Virus record (IMG/VR): IMGVR_UViG_3300009703_002927
Coordinates: 1 to 21,852 of that record
DNA: 21,852 nucleotides
Origin: a virus
Strand: one strand, 5' to 3'
The notes below the pieces were generated by a model. It was not told the origin of the DNA and did no database searches. It worked only from the letters and a program-made list of their open reading frames with translations. The position numbers were made by a program, and so were the translations under genes. Position 1 is the first letter of the stretch. Each line of letters begins with the position of its first letter. Below are positions 985 through 21,550 of this stretch, one piece after another.

Positions 985-2271
985 TTAACTATCTTTTTGA
1001 TTATTTGCAAGGTGTGATGTTAATAGAGAAGTAAATTTGCTATATTTAGTTTGCACCGAGTCCATAGGCATATCGCCCTCACTACCTGGGTTACCGCTAG
1101 GATTATATGATTTAATATATTCAGCTTCAGCTTCAGCTTCTTTCTCGTCGTCTCTCTTTTTACCAGCGGCGCCTGTTTTAGTAGCCTGTATTGCGCCTCG
1201 CAAAGTTTTCAGATCCTTTGTTCTTTCATATACTCGATCTCCAAGTCGATGACTCATAGCAGCTTTTACAATTAATACGACTAATACTGCCGTTCTTCCT
1301 GCTAATGGATTTTTTTCAATCGATTGGATTACCTTTTCAAATTGATTGTCATCAAGTACTTTATTTGTCCATCCAAAAATTTCTTCAATAATTTCACCTT
1401 CAGGTACATTAGAAATTGTCAGTGGTATATCTCTACCCGTAGCGGTAGATGTTCTAGCTGGTACTTCAGCGCCAGCTTTCAGTTCGGCAGCCGCGCCACC
1501 AGCAAGTGCTCTGTCAATTCGTTGCAACATCTCAACAATTTTATTTTCTGTTGGCATAGCCTTGATTGTATTTTCAATCTGCTTGTTCTTGTCCTTATTA
1601 AGACTGCTAACGACCCAGCTTCTAGGAATCGGTCTCAAATACCAAGGGCCTTTTCCAGTACGCTTGGCATTTTCAAGCGCTTCTTTAATTAATGCTATAT
1701 GAGGAAGTTCAGTAAGCGCCGCTTCAACTTCCTCTGAAACAGATTCACTCTCAGGCCACTCAGCCATTTCGCTAATTATCTGAATATATTTGTCAACCCC
1801 TTCTTGATCTTCGATTACATAAACCTCGTTTTCATCCTTATTAAATTCACCAGTTAGCTGCCCTAACCGGTTCATAGCATCTTCACTTATAGCTGTAAAT
1901 ATTGCCGGCCATTGACCCTTCATATTAGCATATATATAAACATGCTGTTGAGGTTGAAGATTTCTAACGATGTCAACTATCTCATTTACTTGCCATACAT
2001 CGCCAGATACATCTATTCCTAATTCTTCGACGAGTTGAGTAATAGCTTCAGGATAAGCTTTCAGTTCTTTGGCTAACCAAGGAATAAATTTCCGTTGATC
2101 AAATTCAATTACCGCGGGAGCGGTTGTAGATGTTTCAGCTTCCGGGGCCGGTGCGGGGTCAGGGCCTGTATCTGATTCAGCAGAACCGCCACCGCCCAGC
2201 TCGGAATCCATTACACGTGTTGGTTCAGCTTCTTGTAACAGTTTTATAAATTTACCAAATTCAGTGCTCAT
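985..2271 (-). CDS. Unknown 428-aa late protein with capsid-targeting-like N-terminus
   Basis: The family is not recognised. The N-terminus MSTEFGKFIKLLQEAEPTR is a short amphipathic segment ending LQE followed by A, which fits the (L/I)xE cleavage rule of the T4 prohead protease. A Gly/Ser/Pro/Ala-rich linker follows (about residues 26-52), then a mostly helical, charged body. Near the C-terminus is an Ala/Glu/Lys-rich stretch, and the last 20 residues (KYSKFTSLLTSHL) again look amphipathic. The start ATG overlaps the stop of the preceding gene by four bases (ATGA) and has AAGGAG eight bases upstream, so it is translated from a longer mRNA rather than from its own promoter. Inference: an internal head or other virion protein. 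Confidence 0.75.
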   Translation of the reverse strand: MSTEFGKFIKLLQEAEPTRVMDSELGGGGSAESDTGPDPAPAPEAETSTTAPAVIEFDQRKFIPWLAKELKAYPEAITQLVEELGIDVSGDVWQVNEIVDIVRNLQPQQHVYIYANMKGQWPAIFTAISEDAMNRLGQLTGEFNKDENEVYVIEDQEGVDKYIQIISEMAEWPESESVSEEVEAALTELPHIALIKEALENAKRTGKGPWYLRPIPRSWVVSSLNKDKNKQIENTIKAMPTENKIVEMLQRIDRALAGGAAAELKAGAEVPARTSTATGRDIPLTISNVPEGEIIEEIFGWTNKVLDDNQFEKVIQSIEKNPLAGRTAVLVVLIVKAAMSHRLGDRVYERTKDLKTLRGAIQATKTGAAGKKRDDEKEAEAEAEYIKSYNPSGNPGSEGDMPMDSVQTKYSKFTSLLTSHLANNQKDS

Positions 2272-2636
2272 CTCGCAACTCCTTCCTCTTCTGATTCAGC
2301 GGATTCATCACCAGGATCAACAGCGCCTTCAGGATTCTTTGGTACACCGCGCATAAATATCTGCTTAAATTCTGGATCTGCTGGGTCTAGTTTACCGGTA
2401 CTAACTAAATGTTTAACATGCCCTACTAAAATTTGTTGCCATTCTTCATTGTTATGGCCGCGTAGTTCATATATTATTGTCCCAATATCTGTTTTAGTAT
2501 CTTGACTCCTGATCTCATCAACTACTGCATTAAAAGCTACTACAGCTTGTTCATTGCCAGCAAAACTGGGCGGAGCTTCAATGCCTGATGCAGCGCTAGT
2601 AGCCGGTGTTTCTTCTCCTGTTGGTTCGTCTGCCAT
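2268..2636 (-). CDS. Unknown 122-aa acidic late protein
   Basis: Small acidic protein with a low-complexity Glu/Thr/Ala-rich N-terminus (about residues 1-25), a compact central part with likely helices (about 28-95), and an acidic Glu/Ser tail. No known motif was found. It starts three bases after the previous stop with AGGAG eight bases upstream, and its own stop overlaps the next ATG by four bases, so it sits inside a co-translated cluster (3254 down to 985). By context a virion or assembly protein; function unknown. Confidence 0.7.
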   Translation of the reverse strand: MADEPTGEETPATSAASGIEAPPSFAGNEQAVVAFNAVVDEIRSQDTKTDIGTIIYELRGHNNEEWQQILVGHVKHLVSTGKLDPADPEFKQIFMRGVPKNPEGAVDPGDESAESEEEGVAR

Positions 2637-2639
2637 AAT

Positions 2640-3254
2640 TTATACTCCTGGTGGTATTGGGTGACCGTTTGCTGATAACCAATTTAGCAAATCTATTTTC
2701 TGCTCAACTGTTAAAGACGATAAATGCTTCATCCAATCAACTTTTAATTGCGATGAACCTGATGCGACAATTTCTTGTAGCTCGCCTGAAACAGTTCTAA
2801 GTAGCTCAAATAATTGTTTGTGGTCTAATACTTGATCAGGTTGAGCGTACGCCTGCTTAAAAATTTGTAACTTGTCAACTTTAATTGTATCTCCACCATC
2901 TGTTAAAGGCGTTCTTGCTAATACATCTTTAACTTGCTGTACTGTTATCTTCATGCCATTTTGTTGAAGTACAGGTAATACTTTATCATACAAGAAATTC
3001 GCTGTATCCATCTCATTTGCATTATTTTGCAAACGTTTGTGAAACGTGCCACCAACCATTGATAATGGTTTGGCTACTAATTGAGATATTCCGCCACCTT
3101 GGCCAGCGAAGAAATCAGCGACAGCTGCTGCAGCTCGATTGTTTGGAGCGTCCATGCCAAGAGGAGCACCTACAGTACGGTTCAAGAAATTACCACTCGA
3201 CTTCGCGGTCCAAGCTTCTTGATTTATTTTATCGTCATCAGATCTATACGACAT
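2640..3254 (-). CDS. Unknown 204-aa late protein
   Basis: The family is not recognised. The N-terminal 60 residues are Asn/Ala/Gly-rich (including FFAGQGGGISQLV) and likely flexible; the rest is predicted helical with an LTVEQKIDLLNWLSANGHP ending. No signal peptide or membrane segment. The start ATG at 3254 follows a GATAAATA late-promoter core by six bases, with no Shine-Dalgarno, so this looks like the first gene of the transcript carrying the 122-aa and 428-aa proteins. Inference: structural or assembly protein. Confidence 0.72.
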   Translation of the reverse strand: MSYRSDDDKINQEAWTAKSSGNFLNRTVGAPLGMDAPNNRAAAAVADFFAGQGGGISQLVAKPLSMVGGTFHKRLQNNANEMDTANFLYDKVLPVLQQNGMKITVQQVKDVLARTPLTDGGDTIKVDKLQIFKQAYAQPDQVLDHKQLFELLRTVSGELQEIVASGSSQLKVDWMKHLSSLTVEQKIDLLNWLSANGHPIPPGV

Positions 3255-3259
3255 TGTAA

Positions 3260-3631
3260 TTATTTATCTAAAGATACATGAGTATTAACATAGGATACCC
3301 AAAAATCCCAATTCTTATCTATCATATTGTATCCGATCTGTGAATATGCACGTCTGCCAACCTGGGAATAAAATCTAACACCAGGAGTACCTCTACGTCT
3401 TTTACGTGATCTAACAACATCAGGCATAACTGATACACTAAAAAAACAGTCATCAGCTAAATCTGTTAATGGCTTAAATCGTATAGTACGGTCGTTTATA
3501 GATTCGATAATGCCAATAAAATCGCGTTTATCATTAAAGTACCTCGATAAACATTGAAATATGCGGAAAGTTTCAGCGTCTGTTTTATTCGCTTTATATA
3601 AAGTTTCTAATAACCAATTATGATCAGTCAC
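3260..3631 (-). CDS. Unknown 123-aa late protein (GTG start)
   Basis: A 123-aa protein with a likely helical N-terminus (TDHNWLLETLYKANK), a central beta-rich part (FIGIIESINDRTIRFKPL) and a basic cluster RSRKRRRG near residue 75-82. The family is not recognised. The start is GTG at 3631; the overlapping ATG in the same stretch is followed immediately by TGA, so it cannot be used. An AATAAATA core lies five bases upstream, which supports the GTG. The stop lies inside the next late promoter. By context probably a small virion protein. Confidence 0.72.
   Translation of the reverse strand: MTDHNWLLETLYKANKTDAETFRIFQCLSRYFNDKRDFIGIIESINDRTIRFKPLTDLADDCFFSVSVMPDVVRSRKRRRGTPGVRFYSQVGRRAYSQIGYNMIDKNWDFWVSYVNTHVSLDK
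3261..3268 (-). promoter_or_regulatory. T4-type late promoter core (GATAAATA)
   Basis: The reverse strand reads GATAAATA followed by ATTACA and the ATG at 3254. The motif contains the TAA stop of the upstream gene. The gap is six bases, so transcription would begin at or next to the start codon. Confidence 0.7.
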
Positions 3632-3636
3632 ATAAT

Positions 3637-3644
3637 TATTTATT
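3637..3644 (-). promoter_or_regulatory. T4-type late promoter core (AATAAATA)
   Basis: The reverse strand reads AATAAATA, then ATTAT, then the GTG at 3631. The motif sits in the 30-base gap after the 46-aa gene. There is no Shine-Dalgarno between it and the start. Confidence 0.7.
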
Positions 3645-3661
3645 TGGATCCCGTAAGAAAA

Positions 3662-3802
3662 TTAATGATCTTTCCAGACTAAGACCATTCTAGGCCCATT
3701 CTCAAGTATCTGTACAAGAGTATCAGTACCTACAGTAGTAACGATAAACTCTTGGAGATTATGCCCCGAAATTTCAGGAACTACAGTTGTGTAATATGCC
3801 AT
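3662..3802 (-). CDS. Small unknown late protein (46 aa)
   Basis: A short open frame encoding a 46-aa protein that starts MAYYTTVVPEISGHNLQEF and ends MVLVWKDH. It has no membrane segment and looks like a small beta-rich domain. The case for a real gene is its position: the ATG at 3802 lies five bases after a perfect TATAAATA late-promoter core, and the frame fills the gap between queE and the 123-aa gene, ending 30 bases before the next late start. Function unknown. Confidence 0.7.
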   Translation of the reverse strand: MAYYTTVVPEISGHNLQEFIVTTVGTDTLVQILENGPRMVLVWKDH

Positions 3803-3807
3803 GTAAT

Positions 3808-3815
3808 TATTTATA
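3808..3815 (-). promoter_or_regulatory. T4-type late promoter core (TATAAATA, exact consensus)
   Basis: The reverse strand reads TATAAATA, then ATTAC, then ATG at 3802. The stop codon of queE lies inside the motif. It matches the T4 late consensus exactly and is the strongest late site in the window. Confidence 0.8.
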
Positions 3816-4566
3816 CTCCCGTGGTTTGATTCCACGCAGAAATATGTAATCTTGTAAGCCCAATATAGCCGTGCTCTTTAGCCATTTGAAGGCAAAACTC
3901 AGTACGTTCGTGAAAATTATCCTGATGATCTAAACCTGGCATCATAAGAACACGGTGAGGTGGTATATTAAGAGGTTCAATGAAATCTCGCTTAATCTCT
4001 TGTATATCGTCTTGACTGCTGATCACAAACTTAAACCAATAATTATCGTGCTCCATAATACGTTTTAGAGCATCTTCGTTAAATCTTTTTTCATATGACA
4101 TACCACAGTTGTCAAGTTTAACGGAGCAATTAATTTGATCTAGATCGTCAAACAACTCATCTTCAATATATTGAGTTCCATTAGTCTCGATCTCATTATA
4201 CAAGTGACACCCTTCATATTCTTGATATAAATGATTAATACAACTAACAATATCTTTCTGATGCTTCTTTAAGGTAGGCTCTCCACCAGTCCATATCAAA
4301 TGAACACGTCCTTCAAGAACCCAATCTAAGATTCCTTCGCTCTTCCAGTCGTCAATTAGTACGTTGAGATCTGTTGTTTCGCCTTGACGCCACACAGCTT
4401 CTGAATCACACCACCAAGTGGCTTCTCCACTCTCCATGAGGCTTCCATTTTTACCACCACACATTAAATTACAACCTTTAAGGCGGATAAAATACGCTGG
4501 GTAACCAGTTGATGCTCCTTCACACTGTACCGAGTAAAAGTTTTCTGATAATGATAATGTTGCCAT
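3811..4566 (-). CDS. queE: 7-carboxy-7-deazaguanine synthase QueE (radical SAM)
   Basis: Third step of preQ0 synthesis: 6-carboxytetrahydropterin to 7-carboxy-7-deazaguanine. A 251-aa protein with an N-terminal ENFYSVQCEG typical of QueE, cluster-binding cysteines C32, C36 and C53, the radical-SAM motif GGEP (94-97) and NEIETNGT (124-131). The cysteine spacing is CX3CX16C followed by DS; the common form is CX3CX2C followed by DT, so about 14 residues are inserted between the second and third cysteines. The frame is open further upstream, but the ATG at 4566 was chosen because it starts at the conserved N-terminus, one base after the queD stop. It is co-transcribed with queD. Confidence 0.92.
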   Translation of the reverse strand: MATLSLSENFYSVQCEGASTGYPAYFIRLKGCNLMCGGKNGSLMESGEATWWCDSEAVWRQGETTDLNVLIDDWKSEGILDWVLEGRVHLIWTGGEPTLKKHQKDIVSCINHLYQEYEGCHLYNEIETNGTQYIEDELFDDLDQINCSVKLDNCGMSYEKRFNEDALKRIMEHDNYWFKFVISSQDDIQEIKRDFIEPLNIPPHRVLMMPGLDHQDNFHERTEFCLQMAKEHGYIGLTRLHISAWNQTTGV

Positions 4567-4567
4567 A

Positions 4568-5008
4568 TTAGTTTTGATAAGTTGCACTATTTCCTTCATG
4601 TTCCCAGACTTCAACCTTAACGCATCTACAACGACCGCCTGTACTGTCGTTAAGAAATTTATTTGCAGCATTATAACACCACTCTGCTGTTCTTTCAATA
4701 CCTACACCGTTTTCCATAATACGTAAATCTAAATCACCTGATTTCTGTAAAGCAATAAATCTAGATAGACTCGGGTCATCTTTAGCAATACAAGTAGTAT
4801 GGTCAAACTGATGCTCTAATTGCTTCTTAAACGGCTTTAGAGAACCGAAATCAACAACCCAATGATTAATATCTAACTCTTGAGCTTCAAACCAGAACTT
4901 AGCCTTCAATCTATATCCATGAATAAACTTACAATGAGATGTAGCTCGAGGTTGTCTAAACGCGCAGCTACCTAAATCGATAACTTTCGTGCTTTGAAAT
5001 TTTCCCAT
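4568..5008 (-). CDS. queD: 6-carboxy-5,6,7,8-tetrahydropterin synthase QueD
   Basis: Second step of preQ0 synthesis: converts dihydroneopterin triphosphate to 6-carboxytetrahydropterin. A 146-aa T-fold protein with SHCKFIHGY (24-32), VVDFGSLK (51-58), FDH (68-70) and a C-terminal VEVWEHEG. Most QueD proteins have C-x3-HGH as part of the zinc/catalytic site; here the last His is Tyr (HGY), and the usual FxAAH motif before it is replaced by FRQPRATSH, so it belongs to a divergent subfamily. The frame runs upstream to 5092, but the ATG at 5008 was chosen because a TTGACC-16-TATAAT promoter lies directly before it and the upstream extension looks non-coding. queE follows after one base. Confidence 0.9.
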   Translation of the reverse strand: MGKFQSTKVIDLGSCAFRQPRATSHCKFIHGYRLKAKFWFEAQELDINHWVVDFGSLKPFKKQLEHQFDHTTCIAKDDPSLSRFIALQKSGDLDLRIMENGVGIERTAEWCYNAANKFLNDSTGGRCRCVKVEVWEHEGNSATYQN

Positions 5009-5015
5009 ACACCTA

Positions 5016-5043
5016 ATTATAGTATATGAGAGATGAAGGTCAA
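5016..5043 (-). promoter_or_regulatory. Sigma70-like promoter of queDE
   Basis: The reverse strand carries TTGACC (5043-5038), a 16-base spacer and TATAAT (5021-5016), then TAGGTGT and the ATG at 5008. It is the best sigma70 match in the window. Transcription would start about at the ATG. It overlaps the stop of the gene at 5040. Confidence 0.8.
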
Positions 5044-5360
5044 GATATTTTTTGCATACCACAACCACATTCTTGCGGTTCACCAGCTGCAAATTTTCGG
5101 TACATTTTTAGAAAGCATTCATCGCAGTATTCTAAATTTCTTAAATAGCTTTCTATTTCTTCAACAGTACCTGAACTTTCAATTTGTTTAATTACTTGAT
5201 GATTAGGTTCAATATTGTCATGGTCCATTATATAATGGATGACGAACTGTTTGAACTCGTCGAACTTAGGCGGCGTCGCAGGTACAATCTGCATATCAAT
5301 GCCTGATTCAGGAGGCATCGTTAGCGCGTTAAGTATAGAGATAATTTTATCATCAAACAT
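5040..5360 (-). CDS. Unknown 106-aa protein with C-terminal Cys cluster
   Basis: A small protein of unknown family. The N-terminal part is helical and acidic; the C-terminus has YCDECFLKMYRKF followed by ECGCGMQKIS, a CxxC plus CxC arrangement that could bind zinc or iron (inference). An AATAAATA late-promoter core lies eight bases before the ATG at 5360, so it seems to be a late gene, back to back with folE. Read-through from this gene would also transcribe queDE late in infection. Confidence 0.65.
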   Translation of the reverse strand: MFDDKIISILNALTMPPESGIDMQIVPATPPKFDEFKQFVIHYIMDHDNIEPNHQVIKQIESSGTVEEIESYLRNLEYCDECFLKMYRKFAAGEPQECGCGMQKIS

Positions 5361-5368
5361 TCTAAAAA

Positions 5369-5376
5369 TATTTATT
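5369..5376 (-). promoter_or_regulatory. T4-type late promoter core (AATAAATA)
   Basis: The reverse strand reads AATAAATA, then TTTTTAGA, then ATG at 5360. The motif shares bases 5375-5376 with the -35 box of the divergent folE promoter on the other strand. Confidence 0.6.
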
Positions 5377-5402
5377 GAATTTCCTTAGCAATGTCGTATA
5401 AT
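5375..5402 (+). promoter_or_regulatory. Sigma70-like promoter of folE
   Basis: TTGAAT (5375-5380), a 16-base spacer and TATAAT (5397-5402), then 11 bases to the folE ATG. No Shine-Dalgarno is present in those 11 bases. Confidence 0.7.
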
Positions 5403-5413
5403 ATATATGAAAT

Positions 5414-6061
5414 ATGAGTGTTGACGAATATAAATTACCTTACGCTAATGGGAACATGCCCAGGTCAGACGAAGAAAAAGAGAGAATTATTGAGAAAGCT
5501 GCGTTTCATTACGGTGAATATATGACCGCACTAGGGTTTGACTGGAAGGATGACCCAAACAGTGCAGATACTCCTCGAAGAGTTGCGAAAGCTTTTGTTA
5601 ATGACTTAGCTGAGGGCTGTTTTACTGCTCCTCCTAAGATTACAGCATTCGATAATGTCGACCAATATGATGGAATTGTGTTTCAAGGCAATATTAAGAC
5701 TAATTCCTTTTGCTCGCATCACCATTTACCATTTATTGGACAGACTCATGTTGCTTATATACCAGGTAAAGACGGTAAGGTGATCGGGTTAAGCAAATTG
5801 AACAGAATTGTTGAATGGTTTTCACGTAGACCTCAAGTTCAAGAGAACTTAACCATGCAAATTCATAAACATATTGATGAAGTATGTGAAGGTAACAAAG
5901 GAGTTGCTGTATATGTATCAGCAAATCATACTTGCGCTGGTCTTCGAGGTGTAAAACATGATTCAACTATGAAGACAGCTCGTATGTCAGGTGCATTTTT
6001 AGATAAGACAGATTTAACACGACAGGAGTTTTATGACTTCGTTAGAGATTTGAAACTATGA
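5414..6061 (+). CDS. folE: GTP cyclohydrolase I (FolE)
   Basis: Converts GTP to 7,8-dihydroneopterin triphosphate, the first step of both folate and preQ0/queuosine synthesis. A 215-aa protein with the family's zinc ligands in SFCSHHHLPF (C100, with the following His residues) and HTCAGLRGV (C174), plus GLSKLNRIVEWFSRRPQVQE (125-144). The length is normal for bacterial FolE. It starts behind a sigma70-like promoter and its stop overlaps the next ATG by four bases. With queD and queE divergent from it and queC at the other end of the window, it most likely feeds preQ0 synthesis rather than folate. Confidence 0.95.
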   Translation: MSVDEYKLPYANGNMPRSDEEKERIIEKAAFHYGEYMTALGFDWKDDPNSADTPRRVAKAFVNDLAEGCFTAPPKITAFDNVDQYDGIVFQGNIKTNSFCSHHHLPFIGQTHVAYIPGKDGKVIGLSKLNRIVEWFSRRPQVQENLTMQIHKHIDEVCEGNKGVAVYVSANHTCAGLRGVKHDSTMKTARMSGAFLDKTDLTRQEFYDFVRDLKL

Positions 6062-6237
6062 ACTATACAGAGAAAATGAATAGCTTGATGGCCCAAAGTC
6101 ATCAAATACAAGAATGTGTTGGCGGGCTTTGTGAGCATCCAGAACATAAAATAAACGCTTTAGTTTGGGTTATTCCGGGTATTATTGCAGCAGTTTTAAT
6201 TGGTAAACTAATTAAGACCGTTAGCGCCAAGAATTGA
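6058..6237 (+). CDS. Small single-pass membrane protein (59 aa), coupled to folE
   Basis: ATG at 6058 overlaps the folE stop (ATGA). The 59-aa product has a soluble N-terminus with two Cys (ECVGGLC, residues 19-25) and one hydrophobic segment, about residues 34-53 (ALVWVIPGIIAAVLIGKLI), followed by a basic tail (KTVSAKN). No Shine-Dalgarno is visible, so translation probably depends on re-initiation after folE. Its last 30 bases overlap the convergent gene 6208-6756. Function unknown; a small lysis or superinfection-type membrane protein is possible but unsupported. Confidence 0.7.
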   Translation: MNYTEKMNSLMAQSHQIQECVGGLCEHPEHKINALVWVIPGIIAAVLIGKLIKTVSAKN

Positions 6238-6756
6238 GAGTATCTCATCAGCTCTTTCCATCGCTTGATCAGGTATCCAAGACGTGTCGCTTAAATTTTG
6301 ACGTGTTGCTGTACCACTTATACGTCCAAATTGTGGTGGAACTGGTGATACAACAACGCTAGGATATGTTTCTTTATTTTTTTGGAAGTAATTATATCGA
6401 GCCATGTCTTCTTCACCAGCTCCTACTATAATCATCTCGTTTTTATGCTCATCTGCATAATCATACACGGATTTTACAGGAGAGATTGGCGAAATCTCTG
6501 TTTCGATGGGGAATTCCAGGTAGTTACTATAAATTTCCCATATTTTTTGGGAATGTTGAGCAGTTACCCCTTCTCTTTCGGGAGCTCCAATGAAAACAAC
6601 ACCTAACTGCCCGTCAAACTTACTTTGTAAGTATTTTAATGCTTCGAAGTGCCCTTTATGAGGTGGTTTGAACCCTCCTGGATATAAAACAATACTACCT
6701 TGACGTTCAAAAAGAACATTTCGCATTAACTCACTATATTTTTCGTCGAAGTTCAT
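6208..6756 (-). CDS. Nucleotidyltransferase (GxFxPxHxGH/ISxTxxR family) with capsid-targeting-like leader
   Basis: A 182-aa protein with the cytidylyltransferase/NMNAT-superfamily signature GGFKPPHKGH (27-36) and the second conserved motif ISGTATR (146-152). These bind a nucleotide triphosphate and transfer a nucleotidyl group; the other substrate (NMN, pantetheine phosphate, glycerol phosphate or another) cannot be told. Before the domain is a 17-residue leader MNFDEKYSELMRNVLFE, ending in LFE, a possible prohead-protease site. It is the last gene of a three-gene late operon; its ATG overlaps the ligase stop (ATGA). Confidence 0.85.
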   Translation of the reverse strand: MNFDEKYSELMRNVLFERQGSIVLYPGGFKPPHKGHFEALKYLQSKFDGQLGVVFIGAPEREGVTAQHSQKIWEIYSNYLEFPIETEISPISPVKSVYDYADEHKNEMIIVGAGEEDMARYNYFQKNKETYPSVVVSPVPPQFGRISGTATRQNLSDTSWIPDQAMERADEILSILGANGLN

Positions 6757-7955
6757 TTGAATGATGATTGTAACCCACCAACAATAAAGTCACCGGCTAT
6801 CTTGAACACAGGATAAACAATACTAGCACGCGGGGTAGGTCTCATACCACGTATAACAATACCTTCGCCGACGGGTATAACATCTCCATGCTGTGTTTCG
6901 AGGCTACTTAAAATTTCTCTACCTAATACACGCGTTGCATGCCAAAACACCGCAGCATCAATGGCTAGTTTGTTATTAACATTTGTATCTTTAATAAACT
7001 CATCTAAGGGCCCTACGGATCTGTTGTCTTCACCAATAACATATTGGTAGATCTTCTTCTGCATAACGAGAACTTTGCTTCCATCTAGTAATTCTACCTT
7101 TTTACCTAATGGGTTACGAGCTTGACTTAACCATAAATCTAATGAGCGTGTATCTTCATTATTTTCTGAGTGACGAATAGTCACTTTTGAATTTAACATC
7201 CCTTGCAAGTCTGGTTCAGCATTAAACCTAACTGGTATAACACCGTGAGTGTCAAAGTCTTTACTTTTAGATACAGCATGAACCTTATTAACCAATCTAT
7301 CGAAAGCGTTTATGTTATATTTTGGATTGCCGACAGAGTCAGCCATCTCTCTACCTTCTCTTCTATTAATTTGCCGCCCAGTTTTAGGATTCTTACCTGT
7401 AACATGCTTAAATTTATTAATACCATGAAAGGCTATAAAATTTTTACCGTAGTTTATAACATTTGTACCGCCTGCTTCAACAAATTCAGTATTAATAAAG
7501 CGCGACTCAGTAGCAGGTACTACATTCCACATTCTTAATGCTTTAAGCTCAGGTTCAATATGAGGAATAGCGTCGTTTAGAATTCCAAGAAGGATTTGAC
7601 CTGCTTTAACCATGCCATGTTGTTCTTCTTTTACCTCACCTGAAGCTACATCGATTTTGTTTGGCCATTTTTCTTCGAGCCTATCAATTGTAATACCTTC
7701 AAGGTCTAAATCTTTCATTGAACCGCGATCTAATGCAAATTCTTTACCGTTTGGGCCATCGACTAATCTAACTGAGACATTAACTCCATCAATTTTTGTC
7801 GCCGCCGATTTATCTTTGATATGAGTAATAGCGTTTTCGAAAACACGAGTTAAATCTTTACCGGTATTGATATTAGGTAAGTCAAAAGGATGAGGCATAT
7901 GCCCACCAGCGCCTCCTTCGTTAAGTAAGGAGTAAAAGTTGCTAAAATTAATCAT
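6753..7955 (-). CDS. RNA/DNA-ligase-fold nucleotidyltransferase with capsid-targeting-like leader
   Basis: A 400-aa protein with the ordered motifs of covalent nucleotidyltransferases: motif I KIDG (K54 the expected adenylated lysine), ALDRGSMKD (74-82), motif III-like FINTEFVE (153-160), FIAFHGI (173-179), motif IV EGIVIRG (364-370) and motif V-like FKIAGDF (384-390). This supports a polynucleotide ligase, most likely an RNA ligase. A DNA ligase is less likely because no OB-fold domain follows motif V. The N-terminus MINFSNFYSLLNEGG ends in LNE followed by G, matching the prohead-protease cleavage rule. The start overlaps the upstream stop (ATGA) and the stop overlaps the downstream start. 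Inference: packaged in the virion. Confidence 0.8.
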   Translation of the reverse strand: MINFSNFYSLLNEGGAGGHMPHPFDLPNINTGKDLTRVFENAITHIKDKSAATKIDGVNVSVRLVDGPNGKEFALDRGSMKDLDLEGITIDRLEEKWPNKIDVASGEVKEEQHGMVKAGQILLGILNDAIPHIEPELKALRMWNVVPATESRFINTEFVEAGGTNVINYGKNFIAFHGINKFKHVTGKNPKTGRQINRREGREMADSVGNPKYNINAFDRLVNKVHAVSKSKDFDTHGVIPVRFNAEPDLQGMLNSKVTIRHSENNEDTRSLDLWLSQARNPLGKKVELLDGSKVLVMQKKIYQYVIGEDNRSVGPLDEFIKDTNVNNKLAIDAAVFWHATRVLGREILSSLETQHGDVIPVGEGIVIRGMRPTPRASIVYPVFKIAGDFIVGGLQSSFK

Positions 7956-8323
7956 ACTGTTGGTGACCCATATCTAGTAATTAAATCGCGTAAACTTTCG
8001 TGCATATCGAATGCATTCTTAGGAGTTATTTTGTCGCTAAAGATATCTAAATCAGCTTCTTCAAGATCTTCTGGGTTAATAGAAAGTAGTTCAAGCATAT
8101 CACGAACAGCTTCAACGTAACCTTGGTCAGTCAACGTTTTAGTTTCTTGTTCGTCAGGTACAGGTGCCTCAGCAGCAGGGTCGCCAGGTGGAGGCGGTAC
8201 GGCAGGAGCAGGTTGCGCTGCCATAGCTGCATCAACAGCACCGCCAAGTTCATCACCGGGTGCTTCATACAAAACACCTTGTTTTTTTGCAAAATTTTGT
8301 AAAACGTCGTTAAGCTTACCCAT
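7952..8323 (-). CDS. Unknown Pro/Ala-rich protein with capsid-targeting-like leader
   Basis: A 123-aa protein and first gene of the late operon that continues into the ligase and the nucleotidyltransferase. The N-terminal 20 residues (MGKLNDVLQNFAKKQGVLYE) end in LYE followed by A, again the prohead-protease rule. A Pro/Ala-rich low-complexity linker (about 30-55) follows, then a likely helical acidic domain (EAVRDMLELLSINPEDLEEA onward) ending in a helix with MHESLRDLITRYG. The family is not recognised. A CTAAATA core lies eight bases before the ATG. Confidence 0.75.
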   Translation of the reverse strand: MGKLNDVLQNFAKKQGVLYEAPGDELGGAVDAAMAAQPAPAVPPPPGDPAAEAPVPDEQETKTLTDQGYVEAVRDMLELLSINPEDLEEADLDIFSDKITPKNAFDMHESLRDLITRYGSPTV

Positions 8324-8331
8324 ATCGTTAA

Positions 8332-8338
8332 TATTTAG
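8332..8338 (-). promoter_or_regulatory. Late promoter core (CTAAATA variant)
   Basis: The reverse strand reads ACTAAATA, then TTAACGAT and the ATG at 8323. This is a one-base variant of the late core. The TAA of the upstream orphan frame lies within it, the same arrangement as at the other late promoters. Confidence 0.5.
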
Positions 8339-8460
8339 TCAGTTATATATAGATAAACGGGTGTAACCTTATAATCAGGAGAATTGAGATCTAGCTCTGT
8401 ATCTGTATATAAGGGCGGCCCAACGGCTACATATAACCTTATTCTTGTGTCACTGGTAAA
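8335..8460 (-). pseudogene. Orphan reading frame without a start codon (possible 3' gene fragment)
   Basis: Between the gene at 7952-8323 and the one at 8450-9013 the reverse strand has 41 open codons ending in TAA at 8337-8335. The translation contains RLYVAVGPPLYTDTELDLN and ends VYLYITD, which looks like a real protein C-terminus. There is no ATG, GTG or TTG in this frame after the upstream TGA at 8461-8463. Its stop sits inside a late promoter, as for genuine genes here. It could be a gene remnant left by insertion of the two genes upstream, a product of +1 frameshifting from the 187-aa gene, or chance. Confidence 0.35.
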
Positions 8461-9013
8461 TCAACTGCTTCGACTTAACTTTCTTAAAATAGTTGTTCGA
8501 GAGATATTCAAGGCCGTTTGCATTCGCGAAATATCTAGCTTTTGAGTATGTAAATTTGGAAATATCATATTTATCTGCTATGCATTTCGCAGCTGTTACT
8601 ATATCAGCACACTCGCCTGAGTTTTTATTTCTCTTTAATAGTCCGAATGATATATTAGCTGATAAGATTTTAAGAGGAAGCATCTTCGTTATTTTAGATA
8701 TTAGTGTATTGAAGAACTTTATCCTATCATTGAGTGGTATATATTTGAGTAGATCGCTTTCGATTGGAATTTTGTCACTGTACAGTATGACAACCTTTTC
8801 TTTACTCTTACTGTTGAGTATGTACTCGCATAGCTCGAATATAATATGGTGATAGAATAGCCGTTTGACATCAGTTGACTTTATATTGAGCTGATTATCT
8901 TTAATTAGATCATATCGGTTGACATCATCAATTAATTTAGGCTCAGCATATTTTTTGTAAATGGATGCAAAATCTAATATCCGAAGATTGTATATTGGAT
9001 ATACTAGATTCAT
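8450..9013 (-). CDS. Unknown 187-aa protein, coupled to GIY-YIG gene
   Basis: The family is not recognised. The protein is Lys/Ile/Leu-rich and mostly helical (from MNLVYPIYNLRILDFASIYK), with a basic C-terminus (YFKKVKSKQLIYQ). The ATG at 9013 was chosen over an in-frame ATG 30 bases upstream because it overlaps the stop of the GIY-YIG gene (ATGA) with an AAAGAAA stretch just upstream. It may be a partner of the endonuclease, carried by the same insertion, or a DNA-binding protein; nothing in the sequence decides. Confidence 0.65.
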   Translation of the reverse strand: MNLVYPIYNLRILDFASIYKKYAEPKLIDDVNRYDLIKDNQLNIKSTDVKRLFYHHIIFELCEYILNSKSKEKVVILYSDKIPIESDLLKYIPLNDRIKFFNTLISKITKMLPLKILSANISFGLLKRNKNSGECADIVTAAKCIADKYDISKFTYSKARYFANANGLEYLSNNYFKKVKSKQLIYQ

Positions 9014-9414
9014 TTCTTTTTTGGTTTCCGTCCAATTCTGCAATTTATAATCCCGTTGTAATATTTGTCGCTAAGTAATACACCTAGTTTGAATTGTAGC
9101 TCTGCCTCGTAATAAGCGAGCTCCCATTTATTATAGCACAATTTGAGAATAGTGAAAGCAAAATTTTCCTTACCGTATGTTTCAATATCACTGTTTAGCT
9201 CATTACATGAGCCGGTATATGTTTTCCAATCTGATTCGGTAATTAATTTCCTTTTGTTCTTTTTACCTTTGAGAGGAGGCCGCTTAATAATTTTTTCAAT
9301 TTGCTTTTTACCAATATAACTCCTTTGACTAGAAAGGTTGGTAATCTCATAAATGAACCCATAGCAGCTCTCTTGCGGGAAATTTTCATGATAGTGCCAG
9401 TGACCAAGGTCCAT
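9010..9414 (-). CDS. GIY-YIG endonuclease
   Basis: A 134-aa protein. The GIY-YIG signature is seen as GFIYEITN (19-26) and SYIGKK (32-37), separated by the usual ten residues. It continues with a Lys-rich segment (about 41-57), WKTYTGSCNEL (63-73), a YYEAEL stretch (101-106) that would hold the catalytic Glu, and a C-terminal NCRIGRKPKKK. This is a small stand-alone nuclease of the sort common in T4-type phages as a free-standing homing endonuclease. It lies nine bases after the 76-aa gene and is coupled to the 187-aa gene. DNA repair rather than homing is possible. Confidence 0.8.
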   Translation of the reverse strand: MDLGHWHYHENFPQESCYGFIYEITNLSSQRSYIGKKQIEKIIKRPPLKGKKNKRKLITESDWKTYTGSCNELNSDIETYGKENFAFTILKLCYNKWELAYYEAELQFKLGVLLSDKYYNGIINCRIGRKPKKK

Positions 9415-9423
9415 TAACGTTAC

Positions 9424-9654
9424 TTATTGGGGAACCGTTAGAAATATAGTTTCAGGAGCAGTACGTGTTGCTACCTTTGCTTTAGTTTTCTTCTTCTTTT
9501 TCTTGGCACCAATAATTTTAGGTATACGTGTATCATCTGGAGCGTAAGAATCAGAATTACCGACGAGTTGTGATGCGCTGCCACCTAAACCAACAGACGC
9601 AACTGACATCTGTTCGTTAATAGACTCTAAAAAATATTTTCTAAATAGTGACAT
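9424..9654 (-). CDS. Small basic protein with capsid-targeting-like leader (internal-protein-like)
   Basis: A 76-aa protein. The N-terminus MSLFRKYFLESINEQMS is an aromatic-rich amphipathic leader ending INE followed by Q, fitting the (L/I)xE rule. A Ser/Gly-rich stretch and then a poly-Lys block (GAKKKKKKTKAKV, about 49-61) follow. Small, basic, leader-bearing proteins resemble the T4 internal proteins packaged with DNA. An ATTAAATA late-type core lies six bases before the ATG. It faces away from uvsY. Confidence 0.72.
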   Translation of the reverse strand: MSLFRKYFLESINEQMSVASVGLGGSASQLVGNSDSYAPDDTRIPKIIGAKKKKKKTKAKVATRTAPETIFLTVPQ

Positions 9655-9660
9655 TACAAT

Positions 9661-9668
9661 TATTTAAT
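9661..9668 (-). promoter_or_regulatory. Late promoter core (ATTAAATA variant)
   Basis: The reverse strand reads ATTAAATA, then ATTGTA and the ATG at 9654. It lies two bases from the -35 box of the divergent uvsY promoter. Confidence 0.5.
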
Positions 9669-9708: not shown

Positions 9709-10104
9709 ATGTCTCTACTTGACAAATATATCGAAGAAATGGGCGAAGATACCTCTATAGATGAGTTTAATATGAAAGAGGTTCAGATGAAGCTCCCCGC
9801 AATTAAACACAAATGGGCAGGTAGATTAATTAGAATTAAAATACAAATTGCTGAATTAAGCCGCAAAAAGAAAAACTTAGTAGAAAAGAGTACTGAGCAA
9901 TTAATTGAAGATTCGCCCGTAAAATTAACAGCTACAACAGTAAAGCAGCAAGTTGAAAAGTCAGATCTAATTAAACAATTAAACAAAGAGTTACAAGATT
10001 TATATCTCGCACAAGAGTTTTTAGAGAAAGTAGAAAAGATACTTAACAGTATGACATTTGATATTAAGAACCTTACAGATATTATTAAGTTAGAGACACA
10101 ATGA
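9709..10104 (+). CDS. uvsY: Recombination mediator UvsY
   Basis: A 131-aa protein, close to T4 UvsY (137 aa). In T4, UvsY loads the UvsX recombinase onto single-stranded DNA coated with gp32. The N-terminus (MSLLDKYIEEMGEDTSIDEF) is acidic, followed by a long basic helical region with many Lys (about 40-70) and a helical C-terminus (FLEKVEKILNSMTFDIKNL). The call rests on length, composition and the position directly before uvsW, to which it is joined by an ATGA overlap. Sequence similarity to T4 is weak by eye. Confidence 0.78.
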   Translation: MSLLDKYIEEMGEDTSIDEFNMKEVQMKLPAIKHKWAGRLIRIKIQIAELSRKKKNLVEKSTEQLIEDSPVKLTATTVKQQVEKSDLIKQLNKELQDLYLAQEFLEKVEKILNSMTFDIKNLTDIIKLETQ

Positions 10105-16345: not shown

Positions 16346-18949
16346 ATGTATAGGAACTGTGCTTATCTAAGTCGCGAGCAGGTAATGCGACTATTCACTT
16401 GGTCAGAGGACGGAGATCGGATATCCGTTGATTTACCATACAATCCATATTATTACAAAGAGTCTAATAGACATAATGATGGTACGTCATTGTTCAATAC
16501 AACATTAAGGAAATATGAGTTTCCGAACGAGTATCGGAGACGCCAATCGTTGCAAGATTCGGCTGAGTTTAATGACGAGGTACGCGTATTTGAAAATATT
16601 GGACCTGCACAGCAGTTTCTTGTTGACAGATATTGGACAACTAACAACGATGATACTTTTACGCAGCATCCTATTAAAGTATGTTTTGTTGACATTGAAA
16701 CATACTCACCGGACGCATTCCCTGTACCTGAAATAGCGTCAGATACGATTAATGTTATTACAGTTTATGACAACATACAAGATAAATTCTATTCATGGGG
16801 TCTCGGAGAGTATAAGGTCAAAGATGCAGATGTGGAATATGTCAATTGCTCTTCAGAACGAGAATTATTGGTTAATTTTATTGATTACATAAAGAGCGAC
16901 TATCCTGATATATTATCTGGATGGAACTCTGAGTTTTTTGATATACCGTATCTAATTAATCGCATTAACAAAGTTGTAGGCGAAGAAGCTGCTGCTCAAC
17001 TATCTCCTGTCAGTACAGTATATAGTAGAGAAATGGTAAGCCAATTTGGCAAATACAATGTAAGATGGCATATTAAGGGTATGTCCTGCGTTGACTACTT
17101 AGATGTATATAAAAAGTTTTCGCTAGGCTTGAGAGAATCTTATAAGTTAGATTCAATTGCAGAACATGAGCTAGGCGAAAAGAAGGTTGACTACGGTAGT
17201 ACAAACCTAGCAAGCTTATCGGTTGATAATTGGGACCTATTTGTAGACTACAACATTCAAGACGTGCGGTTGCTTGTTAAGATGGAGCAAAAACTTCAAT
17301 ACTTAGAGCTACTAAGAATGCTTGCATATACAGGATGTACTCAATTTGAAAATGCAATGGGTACATTAAATGTAATAACCGGGGCGTCAGTTATTCAGGC
17401 TCGAAAAGTTGGTAGGATTGTACCTACATTTATTAAGAAGAACGACGGTAAGAAATATGAAGGTGCGTATGTAGGTGAACCTGTTCGCGGTTTTCAAGAT
17501 CAAATCGTATCATTCGACCTTAACAGTCTATATCCGAGTATTATGATATCGCTCAACCTGTCTCCAGAAACAAAAATGGGTAGGTTTGAAATGACAAGTG
17601 ATGATAAAGTTATTGTACAAAAAATTAAAGGTACGTCTAACACACTCACGAAAGATAATTTTATAAAAGTTGTAAGAGATCAAGACTTAGCTATAACACG
17701 AGCTAAAGTTTTATTCTCTCAATCCCGTAAAGGTATATACCCCTCGATTGTAGATGACTTTTATAAAGAGCGGGTTAAGGTTAAAAAGAAGATGTCAACT
17801 CTTCAACGTAAGCTATCTAAACTAGATAAATCTAAGACTGATGAGGTAAAGTTATTAGAGGATGAAATTAGTAGGTTAAATACAAAGCAGTTTACGATTA
17901 AGATTTTTATTAATACGGTATATGGATATTTCGGAAACAAGCATGCACCGATGGGTGATCCTGATATATCTAGATCTATTACATTGACAGGTCAGGCTAT
18001 TATTAAAGAGTCGAATAGAATATTAACTGAATATGTAAAGTCGAAATGTAATCTAACGGATGAAGATTTAGAGCGTTCCCCGGTAGTAATTTATAATGAT
18101 ACTGATTCAGTGTATATTACAATTAAGCACTTAACAAAACATTTAGGTGTTAAATTTGCTGACGACAAGCTTAAGATTACTGAAGAGTGTAAGCAACTGA
18201 CACAAGACATTGAGGATCACTTAAACGGTCAAATTGTTAAATGGGGCGAGAGTGCTCTTAATTCCAAAGATTGTAGATTTATGTTTAAGCGTGAGTGTAT
18301 ATGTGATGTAGGTATCTTCCTGCAAAAGAAAAGATACATATTACGCGTATTGGATGATGAAGATATTCCAGTAAACAAGTTCAAATATACTGGAGTCGAA
18401 GTTGTTCGTACAACAATGCCTAAGCCAATCAAGCCGTATGTTAAGAAGATTATTGAAACAATGCTTACGTCTAAAGATTATGATAAGACTAACAAGGTGT
18501 TACATGAGACATATGATATATTCAAAGATCTACCTTTAGAATCCATAGCGTTCGTCATGGGAATTAGTGAATATAAGACGAGTAACAACGGAGATTCGTG
18601 TGAGGGATTCAAAACATATAAGGGAATGCCGATACACCTCAAAGGAGCTTACTATTATAATACGTTATTAGACAAGCTCGATATATCCGGTAAGTATGAA
18701 ACGATTAGCTCCGGTGATAAAGTACGTTACTTTTATGTTAAACAGCCTAATCAATATGGTATTAAGACATTTGCTTACAAATATTATTTTCCTAGCGAAT
18801 TGCAGGAAAGTTTGGTACCTGATTATGAAATGATGTTTGATAAAATCGTGTATAGTGTAGTTGAGCGCGTGTATGAGGCTGTTAATTGGAAACCTCGTCG
18901 ACCAGGCGAGATTGTTCAAACGTGTTTATTTGATTTATTCCAAGAATAA
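16346..18949 (+). CDS. 43: Family-B DNA polymerase gp43
   Basis: Replicative polymerase with 3'-5' exonuclease, 867 aa (T4 gp43 is 898). Exonuclease motifs: FVDIETYS (D116, E118), SGWNSEFFDIPYL and YNIQDVRLL. Polymerase motifs: A FDLNSLYPS (390-398, D391), B KIFINTVYG (519-527) and C YNDTDSVY (583-590, D585 and D587). The KKRY element is present (QKKRYILR). The C-terminus ends CLFDLFQE, a short hydrophobic motif fitting a sliding-clamp-binding tail like the end of T4 gp43. No intein or intron interruption is seen. It has its own promoter. Confidence 0.96.
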   Translation: MYRNCAYLSREQVMRLFTWSEDGDRISVDLPYNPYYYKESNRHNDGTSLFNTTLRKYEFPNEYRRRQSLQDSAEFNDEVRVFENIGPAQQFLVDRYWTTNNDDTFTQHPIKVCFVDIETYSPDAFPVPEIASDTINVITVYDNIQDKFYSWGLGEYKVKDADVEYVNCSSERELLVNFIDYIKSDYPDILSGWNSEFFDIPYLINRINKVVGEEAAAQLSPVSTVYSREMVSQFGKYNVRWHIKGMSCVDYLDVYKKFSLGLRESYKLDSIAEHELGEKKVDYGSTNLASLSVDNWDLFVDYNIQDVRLLVKMEQKLQYLELLRMLAYTGCTQFENAMGTLNVITGASVIQARKVGRIVPTFIKKNDGKKYEGAYVGEPVRGFQDQIVSFDLNSLYPSIMISLNLSPETKMGRFEMTSDDKVIVQKIKGTSNTLTKDNFIKVVRDQDLAITRAKVLFSQSRKGIYPSIVDDFYKERVKVKKKMSTLQRKLSKLDKSKTDEVKLLEDEISRLNTKQFTIKIFINTVYGYFGNKHAPMGDPDISRSITLTGQAIIKESNRILTEYVKSKCNLTDEDLERSPVVIYNDTDSVYITIKHLTKHLGVKFADDKLKITEECKQLTQDIEDHLNGQIVKWGESALNSKDCRFMFKRECICDVGIFLQKKRYILRVLDDEDIPVNKFKYTGVEVVRTTMPKPIKPYVKKIIETMLTSKDYDKTNKVLHETYDIFKDLPLESIAFVMGISEYKTSNNGDSCEGFKTYKGMPIHLKGAYYYNTLLDKLDISGKYETISSGDKVRYFYVKQPNQYGIKTFAYKYYFPSELQESLVPDYEMMFDKIVYSVVERVYEAVNWKPRRPGEIVQTCLFDLFQE

Positions 18950-20426: not shown

Positions 20427-20807
20427 TTAGATGTTCCTATTATTAATAGCTGTTTGACCCGTATTTTGTTGAGCCATTGCCTGGTTAGGTTCTGGTGGCG
20501 CTGCTGTAGCTTGAGCTTGTTGTGCAGGATTCGCAGGTTGCGCAGGTTGTGCTTGCTGAACCGGTTGTGCTTGCTGTAGACGCTGCTTTAGTAAGTTTTG
20601 AACTTCTGGTAATTGTTCTAATTGTGAGATGAGAGCAGGGTCTTTAACAATTTCATCTGCTAATACGGGCGCTGCCGCAGGTGTTTCTTCTTCGATAGGT
20701 GTACCGTCCTCTGGCGCTGGCGCGTCATCTTCTGTTACAGGGCTGTAAGGAGTTACACCTTGAGAAATGAAATTTTCCCACATTATTCGGGTATCGTCGT
20801 CTTTCAT
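20427..20807 (-). CDS. Unknown 126-aa Gln/Pro/Ala-rich late protein
   Basis: A low-complexity protein. The N-terminus MKDDDTRIMWENFISQG is similar in style to the T4 capsid-targeting leader but has no (L/I)xE end. An acidic Pro/Glu/Ala stretch, a helix (LISQLEQLPEVQNLLKQRL, about 59-77) and a tail of QAQPA-type repeats follow. An AATAAATA late core lies six bases before the ATG. It faces queC. By composition a scaffold- or internal-type virion protein is plausible; not proven. Confidence 0.72.
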   Translation of the reverse strand: MKDDDTRIMWENFISQGVTPYSPVTEDDAPAPEDGTPIEEETPAAAPVLADEIVKDPALISQLEQLPEVQNLLKQRLQQAQPVQQAQPAQPANPAQQAQATAAPPEPNQAMAQQNTGQTAINNRNI

Positions 20808-20842: not shown

Positions 20843-21550
20843 GTGAATAAGGCAGTAGTTCCAGTTTCCGGTGGTATCGACTCAACAGTACTATTACATC
20901 ACGCAGTAAAATGTGGTGATTTTGATGAAGTTCATGCGATTTCCTTTGATTACGGTCAGAGGCACAAGAGAGAGCTAGTATGCGCAGAGCTTACAGCGGA
21001 TTTCCTTGGAGTTAATCACAGAGTTATTAAATTAGACTTTTTCAAGGACATCAACACGTCATCTTTAACAAATCCAGAGATTGAAGTGGCACTCACGCGA
21101 GATGTATTAGGAGACGCGCAGACAGTCAATTATGTTCCGTTTAGGAACCAGATGTTATTGTCTATTTGTTGTGCAATTGCTGAATCATTGGAAGCTAATA
21201 CGGTATATCACGGAGCTGCCCAAGTAGATACACAAGCTGGTTATTGGGATGGTAGTGAAGAGTTCTTAGAAGCAATTAATAGCTTGACTTCCTTGAATAG
21301 AAAGCATAGAATTAAGATTGAAGCACCTCTTATAGAGTTGTCAAAGAAAGAAATTATTAAATGGGGGACTGAGTTACGTGTTAGTTTTGGATCTACCTGG
21401 ACCTGTTACAAAGGAGAAGACAAAGCGTGCGGAGAATGCACAGCCTGCTCGTCCCGGCTCCAAGGATTTATCGACGCAGGTGTTGAAGACCCTCTTGAAT
21501 ATAGCAGAGAGATTCCGTGGAACAAATTATTAAACATGAAAGTAAAATGA
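20843..21550 (+). CDS. queC: 7-cyano-7-deazaguanine (preQ0) synthase QueC
   Basis: Last step of preQ0 synthesis: ATP-dependent conversion of 7-carboxy-7-deazaguanine to preQ0. A 235-aa protein with PP-loop SGGIDST (9-15), FDYGQRH, the conserved VPFRN (about 97-101) and the four zinc cysteines C188, C196, C199 and C202 (CX7CX2CX2C). The start is GTG at 20843, set by the promoter and the position of the PP-loop. It is separated from queD/queE/folE by about 15 kb of replication genes in this window. The stop overlaps the next ATG (ATGA). Confidence 0.95.
   Translation: MNKAVVPVSGGIDSTVLLHHAVKCGDFDEVHAISFDYGQRHKRELVCAELTADFLGVNHRVIKLDFFKDINTSSLTNPEIEVALTRDVLGDAQTVNYVPFRNQMLLSICCAIAESLEANTVYHGAAQVDTQAGYWDGSEEFLEAINSLTSLNRKHRIKIEAPLIELSKKEIIKWGTELRVSFGSTWTCYKGEDKACGECTACSSRLQGFIDAGVEDPLEYSREIPWNKLLNMKVK

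Follow-up and report, generated by a model that had tools for sequence, protein, structure and literature searches.

At least five otherwise unrelated proteins encoded by an uncultured phage, which its sequence places among the T4-like phages, begin with a short leader that is very probably a capsid-targeting propeptide of the T4 type. The stretch of DNA analyzed, referred to here as the window, is the complete virus record IMGVR_UViG_3300009703_002927 (IMG/VR; 21,852 bases). Two of the tagged proteins are probable enzymes, and the set as a whole suggests a protein cargo that is loaded into the particle and delivered with the DNA. Such proteins would be made late in infection with the leader attached, and the leader would bind the prohead core, by which the protein becomes enclosed. 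A homolog of gp21, the prohead protease, would cut after the Glu of a [L/I/V]xE motif, and the mature protein would stay in the head until ejection, after which the two nucleotidyltransferase-type enzymes could act in the host at once. Comparison among relatives strongly suggests packaging and cleavage; injection with the DNA, followed by early action in the host, is proposed by analogy with T4, whose internal proteins are the textbook example of injected phage proteins. As a speculation, the enzymes might counter early host defences through repair or by acting on nucleotide cofactors.

The kind of system, T4-type capsid targeting, is already known. To our knowledge, few proteins use this targeting code, and the searchable literature, with most subscription papers outside its reach, yielded no description of the present cargo, of leaderless or fused variants, or of a copy of the N-terminal arm of the major capsid protein gp23. 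In the present data, the code extends through a large uncultured T4-like group and is found on enzymes and small proteins alike; the tag has in nature been lost, exchanged and fused, and one cargo family (p76) is linked to the major capsid protein itself. This provides a sequence criterion by which probable injected cargo can be recognized in uncultured phages, and makes it testable which enzymes such a phage brings into the cell before the first transcript.

Leader residues and the conserved junction

An earlier note on this DNA had singled out five genes with such leaders, and its description of them is largely confirmed. The starts at 2271, 6756, 7955, 8323 and 9654 are true minus-strand open reading frame starts with the residues as claimed; the leaders are 13–20 residues long and end in LQE, LFE, LNE, LYE and INE, respectively, and F or Y is present in all five. 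A 4-base overlap with the preceding stop is seen at three of the starts (2271/2268, 6756/6753 and 7955/7952). The amphipathic character ascribed to the segments is not distinctive, as their helical moments lie at the 46th–95th percentile of internal segments and are high only in the first of the five, p428. As with the T4 targeting sequences, a short N-terminal segment is common to otherwise unrelated proteins. Comparison of the window with its nearest relative, L001, shows purifying selection on the leaders: four leaders pooled contain 20 synonymous and 11 nonsynonymous differences, which implies that they are translated and constrained, and the ratio of the proportions of nonsynonymous and synonymous differences (pN/pS) is 0.12 in the leaders vs 0.20 in the compared bodies (binomial p ~1e-8).

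Mutagenesis of the T4 sequence MKTYQEFIAE assigned residues 4 and 7 to targeting and residues 8 and 10 to processing (PMC9026906); these residues correspond to P7, P4, P3 and P1. A strict pattern with the same spacing (hydrophobic-x-x-hydrophobic-[LIF]-x-E within residues 2–25), drawn up before that review was read, matches 5 of the 27 open reading frames of the window, where internal windows predict 0.91 and shuffles 0.76, and none of 500 shuffles reached five matches. Both P7 and P4 are hydrophobic in the leaders of the KxDG protein, the HxGH nucleotidyltransferase and p428, and in that of p76 too if it is cut after FLE; the match of UvsY is probably a false positive. In T4, the pattern has 19 matches (6.6–9.4 expected) and recovers IPII and IPIII, and an excess is likewise seen in the large relatives G003 (13 vs 5.6 expected), G002 (8 vs 4.0) and G011 (15 vs 6.5). 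A simple count of [LI]xE at N-termini yields modest enrichment only. Two leader profiles obtained by expectation maximisation were dropped, since the first had converged on the start Met and the second on groups of orthologs.

A removable tag would be expected to vary in length and sequence between homologs but to keep a constant junction with the body, and the KxDG protein shows exactly that. Among 77 unique homologs with a GHMxHP anchor, 65 have a Glu exactly five residues before the anchor (E↓GGAxGHM, with the arrow marking the predicted cut); at P3 these have L (44), I (14) or V (7) and no other residue, and the preceding segment ranges from 5 residues up to a whole fused domain. Homologs without the leader, which the earlier note had expected to speak against targeting, do occur beside these 65, but are limited to the other 12, in which Met replaces the junction Glu, giving Met-GGAAGHM, with an in-frame stop just upstream. 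All 12 fall inside one nested clade of the family tree, with two changes needed, which suggests an ancestral leader with subsequent loss. An absence of gp21 from phages with the leaderless form was considered and rejected because five such records carry a gp21 homolog, and loss of the protease therefore does not account for loss of the tag.

A single polypeptide of the cultured Microcystis phage Mel-JY01, annotated as a 'cytidylyltransferase like protein' (L128, 5302-7221), combines the nucleotidyltransferase with the KxDG protein and has an internal IIAE↓GGLGGHM; its candidate mature N-termini are GGLGGHMNHPF after IIAE and DDSFGDKQVLAIF after IFSE. Several fusions of the two proteins have the two domains joined by sequences such as FDAIYNSVMLNE↓FEEP, and fusions, that of Mel-JY01 included, retain an internal LxE at or near domain junctions. 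One KxDG subclade carries a leader of the LIFE(A/S)Y type before LLNE↓GG, which makes two leader classes interchangeable on one body. Across three families, a hydrophobic P3 and Glu at P1 are conserved at the junction, namely in 65/77 KxDG homologs, in 61/61 homologs of p123 and in 39/41 members of the p76 family.

The KxDG protein is a probable covalent nucleotidyltransferase of the RNA-ligase-like kind, as judged from its invariant motifs and fold match. The motifs K54-x-D-G-x-N and E364-G-x-V are invariant in 54 aligned sequences, in keeping with the KxDG and EGxV motifs of the covalent nucleotidyltransferase superfamily. The best PDB fold match is T4 RNA ligase 2, at E 0.05 and with a low TM-score, and the profile of the protein gave chance-level matches only against PDB sequences. 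In the model (predicted local distance difference test score 91) residues 1–17 are unstructured, which is weak evidence on the leader as most other alignment rows are leaderless. In cyanophage P-SSM4, starts resembling capsid-targeting sequences (MKKFSAFLKE↓A and MLSFKAYLAE↓K) adjoin a DUF6267 gene with the KxDG-like motif KWDGAP at ~151–155 kb (L220, 11258-15116), and this block is possibly the cyanophage counterpart of the cargo block in the window.

The HxGH nucleotidyltransferase contains its hallmark motif and scores 22.3 bits against PF01467 (cut-off 21), with the profile beginning at residue 24, just past the leader. The nucleotidyltransferases of relatives give weak matches to nicotinamide mononucleotide and pantetheine adenylyltransferases, and no match to the window protein was found among PDB sequences. 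Leaders in this family vary (FFLE↓Q, FLLE↓Q, YISE↓V, FVTE↓A and LFE↓R) and are followed by the same domain, marked by PGGFKPPHKGH or PGRFQPFHxGH, with L091, L212 and L200 as exceptions.

The p76 family and gp23

The p76-family profile matches the gp23 of relatives (E 4e-11 to 3e-6); the match starts at or near the predicted gp23 cut and reaches RLPKIL, and the leader Glu of p76 aligns with the end of the gp23 propeptide. At this position, which was placed by alignment, the gp23 of relatives would be cut at WCFE↓AS, WCME↓AS, WCLNE↓AGP or WCIRE↓AGP, and the cut site of T4 gp23 reads FLTE↓A. The C-terminus of p76 often resembles gp23 IPMIRRTF and follows a lysine-rich stretch. Two cuts are possible in p76 of the window, one after FLE (residue 10, the T4 spacing) and one after INE (residue 14). 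The p76 profile found nothing convincing among the open reading frames of T4, P-SSM4, phiM12 and Mel-JY01.

The p76 arm is closer to the gp23 of its own genome than expected (permutation p 0.004 over ten genomes, uncorrected for phylogeny), an example being the pair VPGAPNDVYAPNDTR with FPGSPNDTYAPNDTR in G042, and this tracking of lineages can be explained by shared ancestry. No gp23 was found in the shorter contigs that carry p76, and the pairing is therefore based on ten genomes. In G049 (L265), the gp23-arm copy lies at the C-terminus of a long open frame of >400 residues, and in L055 and L065 it comes after different upstream sequence in frames of 163–182 residues.

The copy of the gp23 N-arm suggests that p76 probably binds the capsid lattice from inside, and its lysine tail may tether DNA. 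A tentative extension of this, just short of an even chance, is that the family is a dedicated capsid-arm mimic, with a leader of its own, cut at the equivalent Glu and seated inside the gp23 lattice, its lysine tail tying DNA or cargo to the shell.

Proposed packaging and cleavage, and alternative roles

In T4, gp21 cuts after Glu in a short motif, and the ADP-ribosyltransferase Alt is cut after ITE-6 and LTE-619 (PMC5694885). A review proposes that the capsid-targeting sequence lets T4-like phages package various proteins (PMC9026906). The gp21-like protease that the earlier note had suggested looking for is encoded by long-contig relatives, with the T4 catalytic motifs GELNHP and SSR-x-LG, but not in the 21.9-kb window. 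The note's reading of the leaders as T4-type capsid-targeting sequences is supported by the conservation of the junction, the leaderless and fused homologs, the gp23 alignment and the gp21 of relatives.

The likeness to T4 IPI, IPII and IPIII (MKTYQEFIAE) extends to an N-terminal segment of 10–20 residues on unrelated proteins, to hydrophobic P7, P4 and P3 with Glu at P1, to genes that are here putatively late and to the presence of gp21, here in relatives; the leader MKTFKQYISE of relative G002 is nearly the T4 sequence. Unlike the T4 internal proteins, the cargo includes an HxGH nucleotidyltransferase and a ligase-like protein, the leaders are longer and more varied with a second class (NxDxxLIFEAY), and natural fused and leaderless versions exist. 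T4 Alt is an enzyme with LxE-type cut sites that is carried in the head, as is predicted for the enzymes here, but no ADP-ribosyltransferase domain was found in the present proteins. The ejection proteins of phiKZ and SPN3US resemble them in that several head proteins have propeptides, which the prohead protease cuts after Glu, as is predicted here; the motif is A-X-E or S-X-E and the propeptides are mostly long in those phages, in contrast to [LIV]xE and short leaders here. The body of p76 is homologous to the mature N-arm of the gp23 of its own clade, but lacks the capsid fold and has an added lysine-rich stretch.

Several observations weigh against capsid targeting or limit it. Packaging and cutting are predictions from sequence, and both gp21 and gp23 are absent from the window. 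The leader of p123 misses the strict pattern, having Lys at P7, a search of viral_contigs returned no relatives of p428, and the pattern is not enriched in relative G005 (5 vs 5.2 expected). In a few nucleotidyltransferase homologs (L091 and L212), the N-terminus is similar but lacks the Glu. Furthermore, packaging of the KxDG protein is not obligatory, since leaderless homologs coexist with gp21 in five records.

Among the other explanations, the most durable is that the proteins are prohead core or assembly factors, targeted and cut but acting in head assembly only and never injected. The gp23-arm copy of p76 and the small, acidic, Pro/Ala-rich nature of p123 suit such a structural role, and a purely in-head function is possible above all for these two; for the set as a whole it is rather unlikely, as two of the proteins resemble metabolic or nucleic-acid enzymes without an obvious role in assembly. 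It is very improbable that the leaders target or tether the proteins elsewhere, such as to a membrane, a replication site or the tail, with LxE as an uncleaved docking motif. The few nucleotidyltransferase homologs that keep a leader without the Glu fit that view, as does the indirect, comparative nature of the link proposed between leader and head in this phage, but the leader end agrees with the cleavage specificity of gp21, after Glu within a short motif (PMC5694885), and aligns with the maturation site of gp23. That the N-termini are ordinary first helices ending in LxE by chance draws on the frequency of a simple [LI]xE at N-termini and on the strict match of UvsY, but it is hardly credible given that leaderless homologs begin exactly at the junction, that Glu and the hydrophobic P3 are kept while the leader runs from 5 residues to a fused domain, and that known domains begin after the leader.

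Further candidates, late-type promoter boxes and neighbouring genes

Capsid-targeting leaders were also sought elsewhere in the window, as the earlier note had proposed, and at least one gene that it missed was found (1-242), plus a possible divergent case starting at 20807 (Table 1). The former encodes p80, a probable sixth tagged protein by its sequence, whose homologs in four relatives keep the hydrophobic-x-E end. The leader of p428 is proposed from its motif.

Table 1. Positions of leader genes, promoter boxes and other genes in the window (arrows mark predicted cuts)
Feature	Position	Strand	Basis or remark
p428	985-2271	minus	orphan
p428 leader, MSTEFGKFIKLLQE↓A	2230-2271	minus	motif alone; fits P7, P4, P3, P1
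HxGH nucleotidyltransferase (PF01467)	6208-6756	minus	profile match
Nucleotidyltransferase leader, MNFDEKYSELMRNVLFE↓R	6706-6756	minus	open reading frame start, homologs, selection
KxDG protein, 400 residues	6753-7955	minus	invariant motifs, model, fold match
KxDG leader, MINFSNFYSLLNE↓GGAGGHM	7917-7955	minus	junction conserved among homologs
p123, small Pro/Ala-rich acidic protein	7952-8323	minus	leader end in homologs
p123 leader, MGKLNDVLQNFAKKQGVLYE↓A	8264-8323	minus	open reading frame start, homologs, selection
p76: leader, homolog of mature gp23 N-arm, lysine-rich tail	9424-9654	minus	profile match
p76 leader, MSLFRKYFLESINE↓Q	9613-9654	minus	open reading frame start, homologs, gp23 alignment, selection
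TAAATA box	8332-8337	minus	14 nucleotides before p123 start codon
TAAATA, T4-late-type promoter box	9661-9666	minus	12 nucleotides before p76 start codon
p80, leader VENNKSKLDHVLE↓G at 204-242	1-242	minus	may run off window end
MKDDDTRIMWE↓N gene	20427-20807	minus	next to uvsX, partial resemblance only
UvsY gene	9709-10104
gp43-type DNA polymerase gene	16346-18949
Deazaguanine-pathway genes	5414-6061, 20843-21550, 4568-5092, 3811-4698

The genes adjacent to uvsX in four relatives start with a MNxDxxLIFEAY-like sequence, and G011 has six genes with such a start, one of them the uvsX neighbour. The gene at 20427-20807 has no sequence match to the uvsX-adjacent gene of relatives and is a possible divergent seventh tagged member. 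In relative G003, a retropepsin-like aspartic peptidase (PF05618; NCBIfam RloA/RimB type; L098 7153-7551, G003 107153-107551) carries MKTFKNFFIE↓K, a perfect T4-like leader, and genes near the peptidase block in other relatives start with MKTFKDYY, MDNFKEYY or MKTFKEYV, without Glu.

TAAATA is also present upstream of p80. Among relatives, leaders of the broad class tend to occur with this box (odds ratio 2.3, p 4e-5), but those of the strict class do not. At a fixed 11–14 nucleotides before the start codon, the box is found in 7 of 26 window genes vs 0.2 expected, and about a quarter of the genes have it in the window, G002, G003, G005 and G011 (52 vs 2.6 expected in G003 and 65 vs 3.0 in G011). 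A Shine-Dalgarno sequence almost never accompanies these genes, and in T4, P-SSM4 and phiM12 the box lies mostly ~23–40 nucleotides upstream. With the promoter geometry of T4, transcripts would start at or beside the ATG, which predicts leaderless late mRNAs in the clade of the window.

Besides the polymerase and UvsY, the window appears by reading of its sequence to encode UvsX, UvsW and gp46/47. The polymerase is at most ~57% identical to that of other viral contigs and ~31% to that of cultured phages, and no match to the window at the DNA level was found among 50,697 phage records. Pfam matches identify a 7-deazaguanine set of GTP cyclohydrolase I, QueC and a PTPS/QueD-type protein, which is joined by a QueE-like frame without a Pfam match; these genes may serve DNA modification.

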